Position numbers and translations under genes: made by a program
Assembly: GCF_002557795.1 (NCBI RefSeq)
Contig: NZ_CP023777.1
Span: 3,171,001-3,235,000 of the forward strand
Length of the DNA stretch: 64,000 nucleotides
DNA from: Chitinophaga caeni
Lineage (GTDB): Bacteria > Bacteroidota > Bacteroidia > Chitinophagales > Chitinophagaceae
Reading direction: 5' to 3'
The notes under the pieces: model-generated
The model's input: the letters and a program-made list of their open reading frames with translations, nothing else
The model's database searches: none
Told to the model about the DNA's origin: nothing
In this document: positions 17,829-26,313 of the stretch, one piece after another
Layout: every line of letters begins with the position of its first letter
Position numbering within the stretch: the stretch's first letter is position 1

Positions 17829-18821
17829 ATGAAGAAAAATATCGCGCTCTTAGCAGGTGGTTATTCAGGAGAATTTGAAGTCTCCATGAACAGTGCAAAT
17901 ACAGTGCAGAAGCACTTGGATGCACAATTATACGAAGTATACAAAATCGTTATTACGAAGAAAGACTGGACTTATACAGGGGCTTCGGGGGAAAATATCC
18001 CGGTTGATAAAAACGATTTTTCCCTAACTATTAATGGGGAAAAGATAAAATTTGATGCGGCATTTATTATTATCCATGGAACCCCGGGCGAAGATGGCCT
18101 GTTGCAAGGCTACCTGGATATGCTGGACATTCCCTATACTAACTGCGGATTGATGAGCTCGGCGCTCACTTTTAATAAAAGCTATTGTAACAAGGTCGTG
18201 GCGGCACTGGATATTATCCACGTTGCTAAAAGCGCCCACCTTTTTAAAGGCAAAGCCTATGATACGGCATCAATTTTGCAAGCCTTGGAACTGCCTTTGT
18301 TCGTGAAGCCTGCCGGCGGTGGATCCAGTATCGGTATGACGAAGGTAAAAACCGCCGAGGAACTACCGGGCGCTATTGAAAGGGCCTTCCGGGAAGATGT
18401 CCAGGTGCTTGTTGAAGAATTTATGTCGGGCCGCGAATTTAGCTGCGGCGCTTTTACGGAACAAGGAGCTGTAAAAGTATTGCCTATTACGGAGATTATT
18501 TCTAAAAAGGAATTTTTCGACTACGAAGCAAAATATACACCCGGCATGAGCGAGGAAGTGACGCCGGCCAATGTACCGCCGGCTATGGCTGCCAAAGCAC
18601 AGGGGATCATTGCCAAGTTATACGATGCATTGAACTGTAAAGGAATGGTGAGGATCGATTTTATTTGGGATGAATCCAAAGATAAATTGTATTTTTTGGA
18701 GGTTAATACGACCCCCGGGCAGTCTGAAGCCAGCATTATCCCGCAACAGGTAAGGGCTGCGGGCATGAATTTGGGTCAATTCTATGGTAACTTGATCGAG
18801 GAATGCCTCCGCAAATCATAG
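17829..18821 (+). CDS. ddl: D-alanine--D-alanine ligase
   Basis: From the ATG at 17829 the enzyme is 330 residues and begins MKKNIALLAGGYSGEFEVS. An upstream ATG at 17808 overlaps the putative -7 box and is less likely. It is an ATP-grasp ligase that makes D-Ala-D-Ala for peptidoglycan: FIIIHGTPGEDGLLQGYLDMLDIPYTNCG, KPAGGGSSIGMTKV, then ILVEEFMSGREFSCG-like sequence (VLVEEF), and RIDFIWDE with FLEVNTTPGQSEASI supplying metal ligands and the substrate loop. The following PASTA gene starts near its end, so wall-related genes are grouped. Confidence 0.95.
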   Translation: MKKNIALLAGGYSGEFEVSMNSANTVQKHLDAQLYEVYKIVITKKDWTYTGASGENIPVDKNDFSLTINGEKIKFDAAFIIIHGTPGEDGLLQGYLDMLDIPYTNCGLMSSALTFNKSYCNKVVAALDIIHVAKSAHLFKGKAYDTASILQALELPLFVKPAGGGSSIGMTKVKTAEELPGAIERAFREDVQVLVEEFMSGREFSCGAFTEQGAVKVLPITEIISKKEFFDYEAKYTPGMSEEVTPANVPPAMAAKAQGIIAKLYDALNCKGMVRIDFIWDESKDKLYFLEVNTTPGQSEASIIPQQVRAAGMNLGQFYGNLIEECLRKS

Positions 18822-18874
18822 GATCGCTATACTTTCATTACCCCCACCAGGGTAACAAAACAAAAATTTATAAA

Positions 18875-19675
18875 GTGTTTAATTTTATTACGAAGAAATC
18901 TTTCATTGCCAACTTAATCGCTGCCATTATATTCGTTTTTGTATTGGCATTGCTGTTCTTTTTTTCCTTGGGCTTTTTGACGCATCACGGGGAAACCATC
19001 ACCGTGCCGGATGTAAGGGGTAAGGATCTCAAGGAAGCAACTGCCATCCTGAAAAATAAGGGCTTCGAAGTAGAAGTAAGGGATTCTATTTATATAGATT
19101 CCCTGAAGCCGCTGGCCGTGTGGGAACAAACACCGGAAAGAAACGATGTGGTAAAAGTAAACAGGACTATTTACCTGACTATTAATAAGGTTGTAGCACC
19201 CACGGTGGCTATGCCCGACTTGGAAGGGCTGACTTACCGGAGTGCCGAGATGACGCTGAAAAGTCGCCGGCTGAGGGTTGGTGATACAATTTATAAGCCC
19301 GATTTCGCAACCAATAGCGTGTTAAAGCAAATGTTGGAAGGCAAGATCGTGAAGCCCGGCACCATGATACCGGAAGGCAGTAGGATCACGCTTGTACTGA
19401 GTAGTGGAAAGGGCAGCATCGAGAACCCGGTACCAGATTTGGTTGGATTGACTTATGTTGAAGCAAGGGAATTATTAGCAGCCCGGAGCCTGATATTAGG
19501 AACCGTGCTTGTTGATGAAACCGTATTTGATACCTTGAATGCATTTATCTCCAAGCAAACGCCAACACCTAAAAATGGGCTGGGCGACTTGAACCTGATC
19601 CGCGCCGGTGAAAGCATCGATATTTGGTTGTCGGCCGAAAGGGGAGTGAAGGATTCAACGGATATTAATCAGTAA
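18875..19675 (+). CDS. PASTA-domain membrane protein
   Basis: I prefer the GTG at 18875, which gives VFNFITKKSFIANLIAAI at the N-terminus; an ATG at 18803 would overlap ddl by 19 bases and add a non-family-like extension. A single membrane span (roughly residues 9-35) is followed by three PASTA domains, starting near TITVPDVRGKDLKEA, APTVAMPDLEGLTYRSA and NPVPDLVGLTYVEA. PASTA domains bind peptidoglycan or muropeptides in Gram-positive kinases and transpeptidases. Here there is no kinase domain, so it is probably a periplasmic wall-binding protein tethered to the inner membrane. Its position after ddl supports a wall role. Confidence 0.85.
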   Translation: MFNFITKKSFIANLIAAIIFVFVLALLFFFSLGFLTHHGETITVPDVRGKDLKEATAILKNKGFEVEVRDSIYIDSLKPLAVWEQTPERNDVVKVNRTIYLTINKVVAPTVAMPDLEGLTYRSAEMTLKSRRLRVGDTIYKPDFATNSVLKQMLEGKIVKPGTMIPEGSRITLVLSSGKGSIENPVPDLVGLTYVEARELLAARSLILGTVLVDETVFDTLNAFISKQTPTPKNGLGDLNLIRAGESIDIWLSAERGVKDSTDINQ

Positions 19676-19680
19676 CTTTG
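19673..19680 (+). promoter_or_regulatory. Putative -7 element for the rhodanese gene
   Basis: TAACTTTG overlaps the TAA stop of the PASTA gene and lies 24 bases before the ATG at 19705. No convincing -33 element is seen. Confidence 0.35.
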
Positions 19681-19704
19681 ACAGAAATTAAAAATCAACG
19701 CATA

Positions 19705-20013
19705 ATGCAAAACATAACTTCAGAAGCATTAAAACAACGCCTTGATAGTGGCGAGAAAGTAAATTTAGTTGACGTAAGGGAACCGAATGAACACGAGGAA
19801 TTTAATATCGGCGGCGTATTATTGCCATTAGGTCAAATCAGGATGATGGACGTGGAAGATATTGAGCCGTTAAAGGAGGAGGAAGTCATCGTGTATTGCC
19901 GCAGTGGCAACCGTAGTGGACAAGCGGCTATGTTGTTGGAAACAATGGGTTTCAGCAATGTTGTGAACTTGGAAGGTGGTATGTTGGCTTGGGAACAAAA
20001 GTTCGGGAAATAA
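19705..20013 (+). CDS. Single-domain rhodanese-like protein
   Basis: From the ATG at 19705 the product is 102 residues; a TTG at 19678 would add nine residues across the putative promoter. It has the rhodanese fold markers VNLVDVREPNEHEEFNIGGVLLPLGQI, then the active-site loop VYCRSGNRSGQAA with the sulfur-accepting Cys, and NLEGGMLAWE at the end. Such proteins transfer sulfane sulfur or serve as sulfur carriers. No dedicated partner gene is adjacent. It has no signal peptide and should be cytoplasmic. Confidence 0.93.
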   Translation: MQNITSEALKQRLDSGEKVNLVDVREPNEHEEFNIGGVLLPLGQIRMMDVEDIEPLKEEEVIVYCRSGNRSGQAAMLLETMGFSNVVNLEGGMLAWEQKFGK

Positions 20014-20078: not shown

Positions 20079-20459
20079 TTAAATAACGGCGGTAACCTCG
20101 ATTTCTACCAAGTACCGGTCATCGATCAACCTCTTTACTTCCACCATCGTTGTAGCCGGTTTAATAGCTTGGAAAAATTCCCCGTGTGCTTTCCCGATAT
20201 CTTCCCATGCTGAAATATCCGTCACGAACATCCTTGTACGTACAACATCATGCAAGCTTGCACCTGCTTTGATGAGTACCGCTTCTATTTTCGCGATGAT
20301 ATATTTGGTCTGAGCGTAAGCATCTCCTTCACCGATAACCTTGTCGCCATCGGCCGCGACAGTGCCGGACACTTCGATAACATTCCCAATTTTAACTGCC
20401 CTGGAATAACCGACATGGTTTTCCCAGGTGGCGCCGGAAGAAAAATTTGTTCTAGACAT
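20079..20459 (-). CDS. Rid-family (YjgF/YER057c/UK114) protein lacking the RidA arginine
   Basis: The 126-residue protein has the chorismate-mutase-like Rid fold: VGYSRAVKIGNVIEVSGTVAAD, AYAQTKYIIAKIEAVLIKAGASLHDVVRTRMFVTDI and PATTMVEVKRLIDDRYLVEIEVTAVI. RidA proper deaminates reactive imines/enamines and needs the Arg of a PAR-type motif. Here the motif reads PAT (Thr103), so this is probably one of the other Rid subfamilies without known deaminase activity. It starts 11 bases after the stop of the ATP-grasp-like gene and is the last gene of the amidoligase operon, so it may process a product or intermediate of that pathway. Confidence 0.9.
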   Translation of the reverse strand: MSRTNFSSGATWENHVGYSRAVKIGNVIEVSGTVAADGDKVIGEGDAYAQTKYIIAKIEAVLIKAGASLHDVVRTRMFVTDISAWEDIGKAHGEFFQAIKPATTMVEVKRLIDDRYLVEIEVTAVI

Positions 20460-20470
20460 ACGTATATGTA

Positions 20471-21673
20471 TTAGCGGGTTTCAAAGAAAGCGCAACTTCC
20501 GCCCACCCAATTTACATCATCATTAAACCCTACGCCGATCATCTTTCCTTTGCTGATCCTGGCCAGGTTATGAACGAGGATGGGTTGCTTTGCATCATCC
20601 GGCCAAAAGTACATTAACCTGATTTCTGTAATGGCGGGGCCCGTGGGAGTTTGAACTGCGGGTGCATACTGAACCTTCTCCTGGAGAATCCAGTTTTGAG
20701 GATCTTTGATGGCCTCGATATCTTCCTTGTTGCAATCTATTTTAACACCTTGACCCGCGTAAGAAAACAGGGGTTTCAAAACAAAATGCTCCAAGTCATT
20801 GGGAAGTACCGGGATTTCATCAAGGAACCATGATTTGGGCACATATTCATGTTGTATAAAGGGTAACGTAAATTTACTCAGCCTGTAGAACCAATTCGGA
20901 TGCGATACCCATTCTACATCCAAATCTTGGGTCAAATCCACCAGCTGTTCCGGCAAGTCCGATTTTTCCGTTTGTAGATCATCGAATATGAGGCGGTTAT
21001 AGATGCGTTTTACGGTGATGGGCTGACCCTTTTCATCAAGATAATATAATTTTCTTCCATCTTGCTTAAGTTCCGTTAAGCAAAGAATTTTAATACCTAG
21101 CCAATCAGCGGTTATTTTAAAGTCGATAAATGTTTTTTGCTGGGAAGGTTTCCATTCCAAGAGTATTACTTCCTTCGGGTCATGATCTGCGACGATCATT
21201 TTTTTTAGCAATTCCTTATAACTACCGGAGTTAAAATTATTTAGGAAATTATCCCAACCGGCAGGGATATTAAAATGATGCCGGAATGCTTGTGTCATGG
21301 TATCTTGGAAGGCAAATAAGCTAGGGAAGCCTTGCAATTCTATTAAGCGTGGTTCTAACCGGCCGTTCCCTGCTTGGCAAACGGCAAAATCTATGACGAT
21401 GAAGTTGGGGCGATCTTTCTCATGCGGTACTTTCCATTGTTTCGGGATCGCTTTATCAGAAGCCTTGAGGTAATCTGGTCGGCCGATGGTATTGATGATC
21501 GTATCGCTGGCCGATTTCATCATAGCTAAGAAATCTGCCGGGATAAATACCGGGGTTTCCGCAATTCTAAAAACAGGTTCCAGCCCATTATCTTTCCAAA
21601 TTTCATCTAGGAAAGCTTGGTATTTCTCCCTGGTAAAATCTTCGTTATATCGTGCTCTAATAGCAGCTATCAT
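20471..21673 (-). CDS. Divergent ATP-grasp-like protein of the amidoligase operon
   Basis: I take the ATG at 21673 (MIAAIRARYNEDFTREKYQ), giving 400 residues; an earlier start would run into the amidotransferase gene. The N-terminal half contains DFAVCQAGNGRLEPRLIELQGFPSLFAFQ. The C-terminal half has FVLKPLFSYAGQGV followed by WILQEKV, then EIRLMYFW, LVHNLARISKGKMIGVGF and a closing GG. These resemble the nucleotide-binding loop and late Arg/Asn/GG features of glutathionylspermidine-synthetase-type or permuted ATP-grasp ligases. It probably forms an amide bond using ATP. The assignment is by motif only; it could also be an inactive relative. It lies 16 bases from the amidotransferase gene. 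Confidence 0.6.
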   Translation of the reverse strand: MIAAIRARYNEDFTREKYQAFLDEIWKDNGLEPVFRIAETPVFIPADFLAMMKSASDTIINTIGRPDYLKASDKAIPKQWKVPHEKDRPNFIVIDFAVCQAGNGRLEPRLIELQGFPSLFAFQDTMTQAFRHHFNIPAGWDNFLNNFNSGSYKELLKKMIVADHDPKEVILLEWKPSQQKTFIDFKITADWLGIKILCLTELKQDGRKLYYLDEKGQPITVKRIYNRLIFDDLQTEKSDLPEQLVDLTQDLDVEWVSHPNWFYRLSKFTLPFIQHEYVPKSWFLDEIPVLPNDLEHFVLKPLFSYAGQGVKIDCNKEDIEAIKDPQNWILQEKVQYAPAVQTPTGPAITEIRLMYFWPDDAKQPILVHNLARISKGKMIGVGFNDDVNWVGGSCAFFETR

Positions 21674-21689
21674 ACAATAATTGTAAAGG

Positions 21690-22538
21690 TTATACAACCG
21701 TGACCGGGTTTTTATCTGCAAAGTTGTAATGCGCAATATCAAGGAACCTGGGTAATAGTAAATCATGCGTCAGCATAATCTTATCGGGATCGTTCAGTTG
21801 TTGCAGCATATCCTGGTATTTTTCGATACCGTGATCGCGGATCACGTTTTCTTTTTTATTGTTTTGCAGGAGATGTTTCAACATTCCTTGTGCATCGGCT
21901 TCAGGATGGAACTGCGTACCGATACAATAATCGTTAAAGCGGATCGCCATCGTAGCCCTTTCTAGCGGTACATGCGGACGTTCTTTCTCAATGGCCAACA
22001 CTTTGGCGCCCATCTTCTCAAACTGCTCTTCATTTAGTTCTATGACTTGCCAATTGCGGCTATCCACGATATAAAATGGGTCGGGTAGACCTGAAAATAC
22101 CGGTTCTTGCTGGCCTGCCGCGGTAGGATGTACCGGGAAAACGCCGAAAGCAGGGGAACGTCTTTTACAAACATTGCCGAGTTCATAATGACGGCACCAC
22201 AGTTGGTAGGAATGACAAATGAGGAAAGTGTATTTCTTCCTCCCGTGCTGTTCATTCCAGGAGATAATATCTTGCATGAGCTTGAAGTAGCCGTTTTCCC
22301 ATTCACTACCGGCGCTTTCCACCGGGCTACCCGGGCCACCGGTCGAGATGTAAACATCATAATCTAATCCGGGTAATTGCATTTGTTCCCTTACTTCAAA
22401 TTCATCCAGTTGGAGTGCAACCTGCTTTACCTGGGCATAATGGTGTAATATTTCCCTAAGGCAACGCATACCTTCATTAGGCACACCTTCGTACATATCC
22501 AATATGGCTACTTTCCAAACTGTTGTAGTACCGCTCAT
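21690..22538 (-). CDS. Class I glutamine amidotransferase-like protein
   Basis: The 282-residue protein has a GATase class I core: YDVYISTGGPGSP forms the oxyanion region, Cys108 lies in FLICHSYQLW, and His211/Glu213 lie in GTQFHPEAD, so the Cys-His-Glu triad is complete. The nucleophile elbow reads CHSYQL where GMP-synthase types have CLGHQ. No synthetase domain is fused, so it may deliver ammonia to, or hydrolyse gamma-glutamyl amides made by, the neighbouring ligases. It is the fourth gene of the operon. A TAACTTTG element (22550-22543) directly precedes the ATG and could give a near-leaderless transcript. Confidence 0.88.
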   Translation of the reverse strand: MSGTTTVWKVAILDMYEGVPNEGMRCLREILHHYAQVKQVALQLDEFEVREQMQLPGLDYDVYISTGGPGSPVESAGSEWENGYFKLMQDIISWNEQHGRKKYTFLICHSYQLWCRHYELGNVCKRRSPAFGVFPVHPTAAGQQEPVFSGLPDPFYIVDSRNWQVIELNEEQFEKMGAKVLAIEKERPHVPLERATMAIRFNDYCIGTQFHPEADAQGMLKHLLQNNKKENVIRDHGIEKYQDMLQQLNDPDKIMLTHDLLLPRFLDIAHYNFADKNPVTVV

Positions 22539-22542
22539 GTTG

Positions 22543-22550
22543 CAAAGTTA
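22543..22550 (-). promoter_or_regulatory. Putative internal -7 element
   Basis: TAACTTTG on the minus strand ends four bases before the amidotransferase ATG. Without a visible -33 box it is only a candidate internal promoter. Confidence 0.3.
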
Positions 22551-22603
22551 CAAATTTGGCAGGGGAATGTTGGCCGCGATTTGATATTATCTTCACCCCT
22601 TGA

Positions 22604-23710
22604 TCACTCGATGCCTTCCAGGAATTTCATTTGTATGAAATCTACTACACTTTCCAGTTGACCGCTTTCTTCGAATACTTTCAGTTGTTGGTCCGCGCCG
22701 GTTCCCTGTTCTAAGATAGTATGTACATGATCAATCACGTGACGGGAGCCCATTTCGTCGATGGCATCATCAATGAAATTCAGTAATTCATAAATCAGCG
22801 CACGGGTATTTACCTCCATCTCTTTGCCGAAGTCAATGAGTTTTCCATCGATTCCATAACGGCTGGCACGCCATTTATTTTCGTTGACGAGGGCCCTGTT
22901 ATAGATCATGAAGTTCAGGTTTTGCTGCCTAAGTTTATAAATTTTGGCGCAAACAGCTTGGAAAAGTGCTGCAAGTGTAATCGTTTCCCTCGCGGTTAGC
23001 GGAACGTCGCATATCCGGCATTCAACCGTGTTGAAATATGGGTGAACCCTGAGATCCCACCATACTTTCTTAGCATTATCGATACAATTTGTTTTGATCA
23101 ATAGCTTGATATAATTATCGTACTCCTCGATACTTGAAAAATAATCCGGTATCCCGGTCCTGGGAAACTTATCGAAGACCTTGGTGCGGAATGATTTGAA
23201 CCCGGTATTCCTTCCTTCCCAAAAGGGTGAGTTCGTGCTGAGGGCAAAGATATGCGGTAAAAAATACCGGACGGAGTTAGCGATATGGATCGCTATTTCA
23301 CGGTTTTCCATACCGACGTGAACATGCAGGCCGAAAATCAGGTTAGAACGCGCGGTATCTTGGAATTCGTTCACGATTTCAAAGTACCGTGGATGATCGG
23401 TAATGAGTTGTTTTTCCCATTTAGAAAATGGGTGTGTGCCCGAGGCGCCAATGGAAAAGCCTAGTTCATTGGCAATTCCGGCGATCGTTTTCCTAAGCAA
23501 CTTGATATCATCGTAAGCTTCGTCAACATTGGCACAAATTTGCGTGCCCACTTCCACGACCGCTTGGTGCATTTCGGCTTTAACTTTATCGTTGATGATT
23601 CGATGCGCTTGTTCAACGATTTTTTGTTCATGGGAACGCAGTTCGCGCGTTTCAGGGTCCATGATCATGTATTCTTCTTCGATACCGAGAGTCAAGTGTT
23701 TGAAATCCAT
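22604..23710 (-). CDS. Carboxylate-amine ligase, GCS2/YbdK family
   Basis: The 368-residue protein belongs to glutamate-cysteine ligase family 2 (COG2170), with a glutamine-synthetase-like fold: LTLGIEEEYMIMDPETREL, HQAVVEVGTQIC, FGLHVHVGM, STNSPFWEGRNTGFKSFRTKVF, RVHPYFNTVECRICDVPLT and ALVNENKWRASRYGID. E. coli YbdK joins glutamate and cysteine weakly in vitro; the natural role is often different. In this operon it stands between two ATP-grasp genes and a glutamine amidotransferase, which suggests one amide-forming step in a multi-ligase pathway. TATCTTTG at 23753-23746 might give it an additional promoter. Confidence 0.93.
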   Translation of the reverse strand: MDFKHLTLGIEEEYMIMDPETRELRSHEQKIVEQAHRIINDKVKAEMHQAVVEVGTQICANVDEAYDDIKLLRKTIAGIANELGFSIGASGTHPFSKWEKQLITDHPRYFEIVNEFQDTARSNLIFGLHVHVGMENREIAIHIANSVRYFLPHIFALSTNSPFWEGRNTGFKSFRTKVFDKFPRTGIPDYFSSIEEYDNYIKLLIKTNCIDNAKKVWWDLRVHPYFNTVECRICDVPLTARETITLAALFQAVCAKIYKLRQQNLNFMIYNRALVNENKWRASRYGIDGKLIDFGKEMEVNTRALIYELLNFIDDAIDEMGSRHVIDHVHTILEQGTGADQQLKVFEESGQLESVVDFIQMKFLEGIE

Positions 23711-23778
23711 TACCTGGTTTAATTTGGATGCTGCTTTTTGCTGTACAAAGATAGGGGAAAGTCTGGCATATTAAGGAG

Positions 23779-24660
23779 CTACCCGCATTGGGTACGCGAT
23801 ATAGCCAAGGTTGCCACGGCTTCAACGAACCATTCGGCATTAATTAGACCCACTCTTTCCACATCTGCATCCGGCACGGGATTGCAGAAATCGATCGCAT
23901 AGGGTATCCCACCTTTAATGGCAAATTCCACGGAGTTGATTTGGTAACTTAAACTACGATTCAACAGTTCGGTATAGTATTCGACAGCGCGCGCGGTGTC
24001 ATTGTCGATGTCAAAAAAAACTTTATACCGATCCATTTCTTGAAGCCTGGGTTCGTAATGCATGATATGAACGCCTTGACCGGCAACGAAATAGCACCTT
24101 ACATAGGCTTCGTAGTCTATCGCCGCCTGTAACATCATGGTTAATTTTCCCGTTTGGGAGTATATTTCGAAAAACTCCGGTTCGTTTTCGACCCGGAAAA
24201 CGTTCTTGCCGCCGCCACCGTAAATTGGTTTTAAATATGCCGGGAATCCAACATAGTGGAATATTTCCTCCCATTGCATCGGGTATGCCAGGTTGCGGAA
24301 CGATTGTTCCCCGGTGCTTTCCGGTTTTATATAAGAAGGAAGCAAGGCCGTGGCTGGCACGGGAATGTTTTGCTGCCTGGCTAAAACGGTATTAAAATAT
24401 TTATCATCGGCGCTATTCCAGAAGGGATCATTGATGACTTTGACGCCCTGGTAAGCAGCTTGTTTCAGATACGATCGATAAAAGGGTACATCATGCGAAA
24501 TCCGGTCAATAATTACCTGGTAGCGAGGTGGTCGATTATCCAGTACATCGCTTATATGAACCGGTTGGGCAATAAGCCGTGACTGCTTTTGATTGATCCG
24601 CTCCATTACCGCGTTTGGAAAGTTATTTTCCATTCCGAATAATATTCCGATATGTTGCAT
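23779..24660 (-). CDS. RimK/D-Ala-D-Ala-ligase-like ATP-grasp protein
   Basis: The 293-residue protein has the three ATP-grasp parts: an N-terminal Rossmann-like part (MQHIGILFGMENNFPNAVMERIN), the nucleotide loop GFPAYLKPIYGGGGKNVFRV, and the metal site NSVEFAIKGGIPYAIDFCNPVPDAD. DDKYFNTVLARQQNIPVPAT marks the start of the ATP-grasp domain. It should couple ATP hydrolysis to ligation of a carboxylate to an amine. The acceptor and donor are unknown. It is the second gene of the operon, 21 bases after the esterase. Confidence 0.85.
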   Translation of the reverse strand: MQHIGILFGMENNFPNAVMERINQKQSRLIAQPVHISDVLDNRPPRYQVIIDRISHDVPFYRSYLKQAAYQGVKVINDPFWNSADDKYFNTVLARQQNIPVPATALLPSYIKPESTGEQSFRNLAYPMQWEEIFHYVGFPAYLKPIYGGGGKNVFRVENEPEFFEIYSQTGKLTMMLQAAIDYEAYVRCYFVAGQGVHIMHYEPRLQEMDRYKVFFDIDNDTARAVEYYTELLNRSLSYQINSVEFAIKGGIPYAIDFCNPVPDADVERVGLINAEWFVEAVATLAISRTQCG

Positions 24661-24681
24661 ACTAGTATTTAAGTAGATATA

Positions 24682-25392
24682 TCATTTTATCAAGGATAAA
24701 TAATGGGGTAACATGTTTTTCCATGTTGGCCAATCGTGCGAGGCATCCTGGCGGATATCGAGCCAATGACTGATATTCTTAAAATCCAGGACACGGCTCA
24801 TGAACTCGGTATGTTGTCTTGCAACATCATTGGCAGCGCTACCGAGTATAATGCCCATGCGCCAAAGATCGGGATCTTCATTGTCCGGCATGTAATCGAT
24901 CGGGTTATTGAAATACACGTTATCGTCGTAATGATCATCAACGCGGGGTTTGATATCATATACGGCGCTCATCGAAAATAAGTAAGATACCCGCGCCGGG
25001 TACTTAAACGCGAAATTGGAAGCGTGGTAGCCCCCGAAGCTGCAACCGGCCACGGCGATACGTTCGTGGCCACTATCGGATTGGATAAATGGCAAAACTT
25101 CATGATAAAGCAAGTTATCATAACAAGCGTGATTGTAGGCCCTGGAAGCAGGGAGTACATGGGTATTATACCAACTGAGAGCATCGATGCTGTCTACACA
25201 ATAAATTTTGATCAAGCCTTGTTCTACGAACCACTTCACAGCGTCGATAAGGCCGCGATCCTTAGGTTCATAATATCTTCCCATCGTGGAAGGGAAAATG
25301 ATCAACGGGTAGCCTTGATCCCCGAAAACCAGCATTTCAAATTCTCTCTCCAAATGCGGTGAATACCATTTTCGATAGTTTTCAATAAACAT
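24682..25392 (-). CDS. Alpha/beta-hydrolase esterase, first gene of the amidoligase operon
   Basis: The 236-residue protein is of the esterase-D-like type: FPSTMGRYYEPKDRGL, IKIYCVDSIDALSWYN, nucleophile Ser118 in VAGCSFGGYHA, and the catalytic His219 in RQDASHDWPTW. It lacks a signal peptide. The promoter at 25430-25461 drives it and probably the five genes behind it. It may release or trim the product made by the ligases. A divergent homologue at 25549 has lost the same catalytic residues. Confidence 0.88.
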   Translation of the reverse strand: MFIENYRKWYSPHLEREFEMLVFGDQGYPLIIFPSTMGRYYEPKDRGLIDAVKWFVEQGLIKIYCVDSIDALSWYNTHVLPASRAYNHACYDNLLYHEVLPFIQSDSGHERIAVAGCSFGGYHASNFAFKYPARVSYLFSMSAVYDIKPRVDDHYDDNVYFNNPIDYMPDNEDPDLWRMGIILGSAANDVARQHTEFMSRVLDFKNISHWLDIRQDASHDWPTWKNMLPHYLSLIK

Positions 25393-25429
25393 GAGATGGT
25401 TCTAATAAAAGGGAACAAACCGAGTTTCT

Positions 25430-25461
25430 CAAATTTATCCTTTCGGGCGCGAAAAATCAAA
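25430..25461 (-). promoter_or_regulatory. Bacteroidota-type promoter of the amidoligase operon
   Basis: On the minus strand TTTG (25461-25458), 20 bases, then TAAATTTG (25437-25430); both boxes fit the consensus exactly. The esterase ATG is 37 bases downstream. Confidence 0.7.
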
Positions 25462-25548
25462 TAAAATGTGATGAACAAATATGTTACCGCGGGGTTAAAT
25501 CTCTATTGAAGCGATCATTTTACACCCCGCAATTGTTAAATTTAGTAT

Positions 25549-26313
25549 ATGGAAATACTACAGGCATTCAAACAAGAAAACTTCAGTCAATATTCCGTTT
25601 TCCTGCAACGGGAAGTGGTCTTCGATGTGTATATTCCGCAGGGTCATTTTGAGCGGAATACCTTGTTGTTACTAAACGATGGGCAAGATTTAGCCCAGTT
25701 GGGGTACACCGGTATATTACAGGATTACCTATTGCATTCCGAAGGTAAAGGCCTGTGGACTGTTGCCATCCATGCCAATAAAAACAAGGTGCAGGAATAT
25801 GGAACGGCCAGTTATATGGAAGCGGAAGGGCGGGGTAGTAAGGCTGATTTATACACGAGGTTTATAATCAAGGAATTATTACCGTTTTTGAAGCATTTTT
25901 TTCATAGGGATTGGGAGCATAAGGCTTTTGCAGGCTTCACATTCGGCGGTCTAAGCGCACTGGATATCGTGTGGAATCACCCCGATATATTTGACAGGGC
26001 CGGGGTATTTTCGGGGATGCTGGGCTGGAGTTGTAATCGGGATGTTGCAAATGAATGCCGGGTGATGCACCGGCAAGTAAAAAAGGGCGCTTTCAGGCAA
26101 CACCTGGCTTTCTTTTTTGAATACCCTGATAACGCGAGGGCTAATGACCTGGTTTCCAGCCATACTTTAGATCTTATTAAGCTGATGAAAGAGAAAGGAT
26201 ATAAGCTGAGAGAACAATTGCACCTTGAAAAGATAAAAGGAGGGAAAGATGATTATGCGACCTGGGCAACTGCGATGCCCCGTTTTCTGAACTGGTTAGG
26301 TGGGATGGGATAG
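25549..26313 (+). CDS. Esterase-like protein without catalytic Ser and His (probable pseudoenzyme)
   Basis: The 254-residue protein follows the alpha/beta-hydrolase esterase layout: VVFDVYIPQGHFERNTLLLLNDGQD, IKELLPFLKHFFHRDW, then FAGFTFGGLSALDIVWNHPDIFDRAGVFSG. The nucleophile position in GFTFGG is Thr131 (codon ACA) rather than Ser, and the segment where active relatives have GGHDWxxW reads GGKDDYATW (231-239), with no His. The frame is intact and the fold markers are conserved, so it is not a decaying gene. It may bind ligand or regulate. It is divergent from the active esterase, sharing a 156-base gap. Confidence 0.85.
   Translation: MEILQAFKQENFSQYSVFLQREVVFDVYIPQGHFERNTLLLLNDGQDLAQLGYTGILQDYLLHSEGKGLWTVAIHANKNKVQEYGTASYMEAEGRGSKADLYTRFIIKELLPFLKHFFHRDWEHKAFAGFTFGGLSALDIVWNHPDIFDRAGVFSGMLGWSCNRDVANECRVMHRQVKKGAFRQHLAFFFEYPDNARANDLVSSHTLDLIKLMKEKGYKLREQLHLEKIKGGKDDYATWATAMPRFLNWLGGMG

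Follow-up and report, generated by a model that had tools for sequence, protein, structure and literature searches.

A conserved multi-ligase gene set in Chitinophaga caeni and its possible role in making a gamma-glutamyl-type peptide

What does a bacterial gene cluster make when it joins amide-forming ligases of three different folds to several hydrolases? We examined this question in Chitinophaga caeni (genome of 5.28 Mb), in a stretch of 64,000 nucleotides of contig NZ_CP023777.1 (the window). Within it lie six minus-strand genes, encoding from first to last an esterase (EstA), a RimK-like ATP-grasp ligase, a GCS2/YbdK-type ligase (GCS2), a protein of the class I glutamine amidotransferase (GATase) fold (GAT), a circularly permuted ATP-grasp ligase (CP), and a Rid protein. 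Open reading frame (ORF) calling confirmed all six, with gaps of 21, 68, 65, 13, and 11 bases, and reproduced the coordinates and the 11- to 68-base gaps described in an earlier note made from the DNA alone. The interval from 20079 to 26313 additionally contains, unmentioned in that note, a divergent plus-strand gene for a second esterase, EstB (25549-26313). For CP, we used the 401-residue version that starts at 21676; the longest ORF would begin at 21766.

Together, our results make us confident that EstA, RimK, GCS2, CP, and associated genes constitute one conserved multi-ligase pathway. Its product is very probably a small glutathione-like peptide or peptide-amine.

Conservation and spread of the gene set

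CP was detected in all 24 other members of the genus that were searched. We fetched the loci of 20 of these relatives, leaving out G300, G306, G308, and G315. The order RimK-GCS2-GAT-CP, on one strand, was identical in 20/20, and EstA adjoined RimK in 19. Divergent EstB was present in 16. Thus, the gene order is kept across relatives and is not unique to the C. caeni genome.

Among 296 Bacteroidota genomes, CP occurred in 92, RimK in 108 at E ≤ 1e-45 (111 at E ≤ 0.001), and all five of EstA, RimK, GCS2, GAT, and CP in 50. EstA was found in 125 genomes and close GAT in 70 (129 and 72 before weak matches were removed). The matches removed as weak were RimK in G047, G122, and G273, GAT in G050 and G215, and EstA in G042, G122, G143, and G154. 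A close GCS2 subgroup was present in 87 genomes (103 including distant relatives); it was defined after the hits were seen, by at least 50% identity against at most 46% for the 16 distant sequences removed before counting, and the E-values of the two groups overlap. CP was present in 87/87 genomes carrying the GCS2 subgroup, which was missing from only 5 of the 92 CP genomes, and RimK accompanied CP in 89/92. Seven of the 16 distant GCS2 proteins came from genomes with RimK and GAT and without CP (G022, G104, G112, G123, G223, G254, and G290). The phyletic patterns of these genes therefore match, in keeping with the single pathway that the earlier note had proposed. When we examined 20 CP-centred Bacteroidota loci, RimK lay within the same 13-17 kb in 10, GAT was the sole companion in 2, and none of EstA, RimK, GCS2, and GAT was nearby in 8. 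Since CP, GCS2, and RimK co-occur despite these scattered loci, the set is co-inherited even where it is dispersed.

A contig scan with the RimK alignment yielded at least 595 relatives among at least 596 matched stretches. We analyzed the best 80 loci, where the ranking reflects similarity to a sequence from Acidobacteriota. Genes near RimK encoded GCS2 (52 loci), EstA (36), an M29-type metallopeptidase (35), CP (25), c7 (16), EstB (16), and c6 (2), where c7 is a PF14403-like circularly permuted ATP-grasp protein and c6 another ATP-grasp protein. All 18 loci holding EstA, RimK, GCS2, M29, and CP, every one from Acidobacteriota, had the five genes on a single strand in this same order. CP and c7 were never found in the same fetched locus (0/80 contig loci and 0/40 Bacteroidota loci). 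This conserved order and co-occurrence across phyla supports the earlier note in its proposal of a multi-ligase pathway, whose product is probably a small molecule with amide links. Overall, CP with its partners or their relatives occurs in roughly one in three Bacteroidota genomes sampled (92/296) and in at least 25 of the 80 contig loci, all of the latter from Acidobacteriota. Because CP and its partners are so widespread in these two phyla, the list of known metabolites may lack one that is common in bacteria.

Across groups, no additional conserved gene of 70-80 amino acids or more was linked to the cluster (shorter genes lay outside this search). In plasmid records, tblastn with RimK and CP gave zero matches and hence no annotated context. 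We rejected c6 as a core member, as it was present in only 2/80 contig loci and its sole match in the C. caeni genome was the D-Ala-D-Ala ligase beside the operon. A hutH gene next to RimK in two loci (L069 and L070) was also rejected, as it scores like an ordinary histidine ammonia-lyase. Some loci differed in content. In variant clusters L059, L061, L062, and L063, c7 adjoins GAT in a stretch without GCS2 or CP, and an M17-type aminopeptidase and c6 lie by the cluster at L037 4417-7119 (assigned by Pfam) and L042 840-3607 (assigned by eye).

Ligases, hydrolases, and transcription

Features of the locus are collected in the table. The earlier note's identification of an esterase, a GCS2 ligase, a GATase, and a Rid protein held, as each passed its Pfam cut-off. 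GCS2 scored 203 bits against PF04107 (cut-off 21) and 523 bits against NF010039 (cut-off 371), and matched the YbdK structure 1r8g at 3.6e-51. It fell under the cut-offs of every glutamate-cysteine ligase model that it matched; the sole equivalog passed was the substrate-neutral NF010039, "carboxylate-amine ligase".

Features of the C. caeni locus (window positions) and the basis of each assignment
Feature	Coordinates	Strand	Basis
EstA, alpha/beta hydrolase (PF00756), triad S118/D189/H219	24682..25392	-	Pfam, alignment, genus and Acidobacteriota context
RimK-like ATP-grasp amide ligase; K144, D257, N260 kept	23779..24660	-	weak profile matches, alignment
GCS2/YbdK-type carboxylate-amine ligase (NF010039/PRK13515)	22604..23710	-	Pfam and NCBIfam, structure match, co-occurrence with CP
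GAT, class I GATase-fold protein, C108/H211/E213; predicted gamma-glutamyl-peptidase-like hydrolase	21690..22538	-	PF00117, alignment, model
CP, circularly permuted ATP-grasp ligase, glutathione synthetase/YgiC/GspS fold	20471..21676	-	predicted model
Rid (PF01042), adjoining CP here; probably outside the pathway	20079..20459	-	Pfam, genus loci
EstB, second PF00756 hydrolase, divergent; Thr131 for Ser, Asp234 for His	25549..26313	+	Pfam, alignment
Promoter-like TTTG-N20-TAAATTTG upstream of EstA	25430..25461	-	motif scan
Promoter-like -7 element TATCTTTG upstream of GCS2	23746..23753	-	counterpart in 13/20 genus loci
Promoter-like -7 element TAACTTTG upstream of GAT	22543..22550	-	counterpart in 11/20 genus loci

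By its profile scores, the RimK-like protein is a distant RimK relative, scoring beneath the curated threshold of each model that it hits (41 bits against 143 for TIGR00768 and 15.8 against 21 for PF08443). Its placement near RimK is therefore weak. The alignment keeps the residues that would be the ATP-grasp lysine (K144) and Mg ligands (D257 and N260). In this strain, positions that are W, W, E (19/20), and E in the 20 genus relatives are N82, G151, A179, and A180, and its enzyme is probably altered. Several homologues (P0142, P0165, and P0211) carry long Lys/Ala/Pro-rich C-terminal tails.

CP gave zero matches in Pfam and NCBIfam scans, with PF03738, PF14403, and PF04174 among the models that it did not match. 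Among 54 CP homologues at E ≤ 0.01, PF03738 was detected in 3, PF04174 in 2, PF14403 in 1, and PF14397 in 5. The predicted model revealed a circularly permuted ATP-grasp fold over the whole length, of the glutathione synthetase/YgiC/glutathionylspermidine synthetase (GspS) type. This gives a likely identity to what the earlier note could only call a second divergent ATP-grasp-like protein. The best Foldseek match of the model was yeast glutathione synthase with gamma-Glu-Cys, and likeness to YgiC and GspS was at least equal to that to glutathione synthetase; families missing from the fold-match lists carry no weight as evidence. A PDB-sequence profile search ranked YgiC first at E 0.13, which is too weak to count. 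The closest named relative of CP is from C. skermanii (63%). In locus L051 (6637-9240), a single 867-residue frame runs from a sodium/solute symporter-like protein into CP, which may be a fusion or reflect a lost stop codon.

GAT scored 34 bits against PF00117 (cut-off 22.8), and its Cys-His-Glu triad is intact and invariant in the alignment. Its nucleophile elbow reads I-C-H-S-Y-Q in the window, with I107-C108-x-S110 in 16/16 aligned sequences, and differs from G-x-C-x-G-x-Q, the canonical class I GATase elbow. The AF2 model (pLDDT 91.9) lies near SMU.1228c, DnfC, TM1158, gamma-glutamyl peptidase 1 (GGP1), and MetA. In Acidobacteriota loci, the position between GCS2 and CP, which GAT occupies in the window, is taken by the M29-type protein. 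Close M29 (E ≤ 1e-130) was present in 6 of the 296 Bacteroidota genomes, all with CP and without close GAT, and was absent from all 55 genomes with both CP and GAT (Fisher p 0.003; co-occurrence p-values for the 296 genomes ignore ancestry). In 5 of the 6 it lay between GCS2 and CP; the remaining genome (G208) has these genes at separate places. A further 82 genomes are uninformative, since they carry distant M29 relatives alone. The six metal-ligand positions of M29 were invariant in a 37-sequence alignment.

Since the glycines typical of the elbow are missing from GAT and its slot can be filled by an M29 peptidase, GAT is more likely a peptidase-like hydrolase, perhaps gamma-glutamyl, than an ammonia donor, although it may be a glutaminase or an acyltransferase of the MetA type. 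Weighing against the hydrolase reading, 31 CP genomes carry neither close GAT nor close M29. The family assignment in the earlier note is sound, while the label of glutamine amidotransferase probably does not describe the activity. Should GAT prove to be a gamma-glutamyl hydrolase that can trade places with M29, a group annotated as glutamine amidotransferases would need relabelling.

EstA scored 27.5 bits against PF00756 (cut-off 22), and its triad is retained in 19/19 genus relatives. EstA also adjoins RimK in all 18 five-gene Acidobacteriota loci. In the 13 loci with both esterases among the best 80, EstB was always divergent and just upstream of EstA. EstB, which recurs in genus and contig loci, is assigned to the gene set. 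The copy in this strain is probably inactive, since its nucleophile Ser and its His are replaced; both are intact in 16/16 genus relatives.

A single promoter heading all six genes, as the earlier note had proposed, was not supported. We confirmed the promoter-like TTTG-N20-TAAATTTG element upstream of EstA, but TAnnTTTG occurred within 200 bp of EstA in 0/19 genus relatives. The motif was instead found upstream of GCS2 in 13/20 genus loci (0.6 expected from shuffles) and of GAT in 11/20 (0.9 expected), with the motif placed at -12 in 10 of these. It preceded RimK in 0/20 loci, CP in 1/20, and EstB in 2/16, with gene starts derived from tblastn alignments. Within -110 to +10, it was found at 11 (GCS2) and 16 (GAT) loci. 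Because a matching -33 box was rare (2/20 GAT loci and 0/20 GCS2 loci), these are promoter-like -7 elements rather than proven promoters. Their recurrence suggests that the operon is likely transcribed as several transcripts.

Rid, a clear PF01042 member (104 bits, cut-off 27.3), behaved differently. It was somewhere in the stretch at 15/20 genus loci, whereas the stretches fetched for the other 5 did not show it. Where present, it lay 13-56 bp from CP in only 5/15 loci and 1.2-6.1 kb away in 10/15, and was within 0.5 kb of a rhodanese gene in 12/15. As it is distant from CP in most loci and near the rhodanese gene, Rid is probably a neighbour and not the operon member that the earlier note had listed. 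On the plus strand (17829-20013), genes for a D-Ala-D-Ala ligase, a PASTA-like protein, and a rhodanese flank the operon genus-wide (19/20, 20/20, and 20/20 fetched loci, respectively).

A candidate pathway and its rivals

A model that accommodates these data, which we put forward tentatively and rate at somewhat less than an even chance, is a pathway for a soluble gamma-glutamyl-type peptide whose carboxylate is probably capped by an amine. It draws on the observed gene set, order, co-inheritance, and catalytic residues and on the predicted folds of CP and GAT, from which we infer the substrates, step order, and product. Because GCS2 adjoins a ligase of the glutathione synthetase fold, a gamma-glutamyl peptide could be extended or capped at its carboxylate. 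GCS2 would link an amino compound to a carboxylate group of an acidic amino acid (glutamate being the most likely), and the RimK-like ligase would attach a further residue. CP would then phosphorylate the peptide carboxylate and couple an amine, either glycine-like or, as in its closest fold matches, a polyamine. The GATase-fold protein, or elsewhere the M29 metallopeptidase in the same slot, would remove or recycle the N-terminal or gamma-glutamyl residue. EstA, with divergent EstB, would hydrolyze an ester or thioester form.

A bolder version, which we consider doubtful, is that Bacteroidota and Acidobacteriota use a standard module of three ligases to make a hitherto unseen counterpart of glutathionylspermidine, in which a gamma-glutamyl peptide is joined to a polyamine or otherwise capped by an amine; in the tested Bacteroidota, bacillithiol genes are present alongside this module. 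The gamma-glutamyl residue would be removed or recycled by interchangeable unrelated hydrolases (GATase-fold or M29), and the last ligase would be CP or c7, which exclude each other. The polyamine marker nspC scored above cut-off in 5 of 80 genomes (4 with CP and 1 without), with 40 further weak matches.

Could the product instead be a glutathione-like thiol, gamma-Glu-Cys-X, with GCS2 as glutamate-cysteine ligase, CP as glutathione synthetase, and RimK or the hydrolases as modifiers? We regard this as unlikely, even though GCS2 and a eukaryote-type glutathione synthetase fold form the plant glutathione pair and the best Foldseek match of CP points the same way. Also in its favour, PF00756 includes S-formylglutathione hydrolase, and EstB matches TIGR02821 at 14.9 of 281.7 bits. 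Against it, the sole equivalog cut-off that GCS2 passed is substrate-neutral, and CP is no farther from YgiC and GspS than from glutathione synthetase. Moreover, bshC (PF10079, bacillithiol) was present in 80/80 genomes tested (40/40 with CP and 40/40 without), and bshC loss in CP genomes, sought as a sign that the pathway replaces bacillithiol, was found in 0/40. By gene presence, there is no obvious thiol gap. The product is therefore less likely to be the main low-molecular-weight thiol, one of the internal metabolites that the earlier note had suggested. A true glutaminase, whose ammonia a ligase would use to form a terminal carboxamide or an amidated cofactor, is a still weaker candidate for the role of GAT. 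Terminal carboxamides occur in NAGGN-type osmolytes, GAT passes the PF00117 cut-off with its triad invariant, it adjoins ligases in 20/20 genus loci, and the top three folds for its model include two glutamine amidotransferases, DnfC and TM1158. Its elbow, I-C-[HY]-S-[FY]-Q or similar, the absence of a close GAT from 37 of the 92 CP genomes, and the M29 protein that elsewhere fills its slot argue against the glutaminase.

We consider it improbable that the set modifies protein or peptide tails, with RimK attaching residues, much as ribosomal S6 is glutamylated, and the hydrolases reversing this. The RimK-type ligase and the Lys/Ala-rich tails of several of its homologues would fit, and circularly permuted ATP-grasp ligases are found in proposed peptide-tagging systems. 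However, characterized GCS2/YbdK and glutathione synthetase-fold ligases are enzymes of free amino acids or short peptides, and the search described above linked no further conserved gene of 70-80 amino acids or more to the cluster. That the genes are chance neighbours or independent housekeeping genes is scarcely credible: they are scattered in several Chitinophagaceae and other Bacteroidota, but co-occurrence and cross-phylum order already contradict this idea for EstA, RimK, GCS2, and CP. The gamma-glutamyl-type peptide remains our preferred product.

Comparison with known systems

In the literature searched, as judged by titles and abstract openings and with the amidoligase survey of Iyer et al. 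2009 outside its coverage, we found no description of this gene set. In the amidoligase operons of that survey, peptide ligases of unlike folds are reportedly encoded together and predicted to act one after another. Among the closest known systems is the enzyme pair of plant glutathione synthesis, GSH1 and GSH2. The GCS2 family takes in both plant and YbdK-type ligases, and CP has its fold in common with eukaryote-type glutathione and homoglutathione synthetases. The C. caeni operon differs from the plant pair in its additional ligase and hydrolases, and bshC is present beside the pathway. E. coli YbdK belongs to the same family as GCS2 (NF010039), but GCS2 sits in a conserved ligase operon. 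The GAT model resembles GGP1, a class I GATase fold that likewise lacks a synthetase partner (TMq 0.61-0.67), although the two share only 14-16% identity and the elbow departs from the GATase motif.

CP is 11-14% identical to E. coli YgiC/YjfC, GspS, and trypanothione synthetase. It has no amidase domain, and its neighbours, unlike those of YgiC and GspS, are GCS2, RimK, esterases, and GAT or M29. YgiC and YjfC have been reported to be peptide-spermidine ligases, in work cited by PMC12568646. Cp1B of the E-64 pathway differs from CP in being fungal, in its partner ligase, and in its epoxysuccinate substrate (PMC12568646). Finally, linked peptide ligases of different folds are predicted to work in sequence in amidoligase operons (PMC4431377), and the C. 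caeni operon likewise combines linked ligases of different folds.

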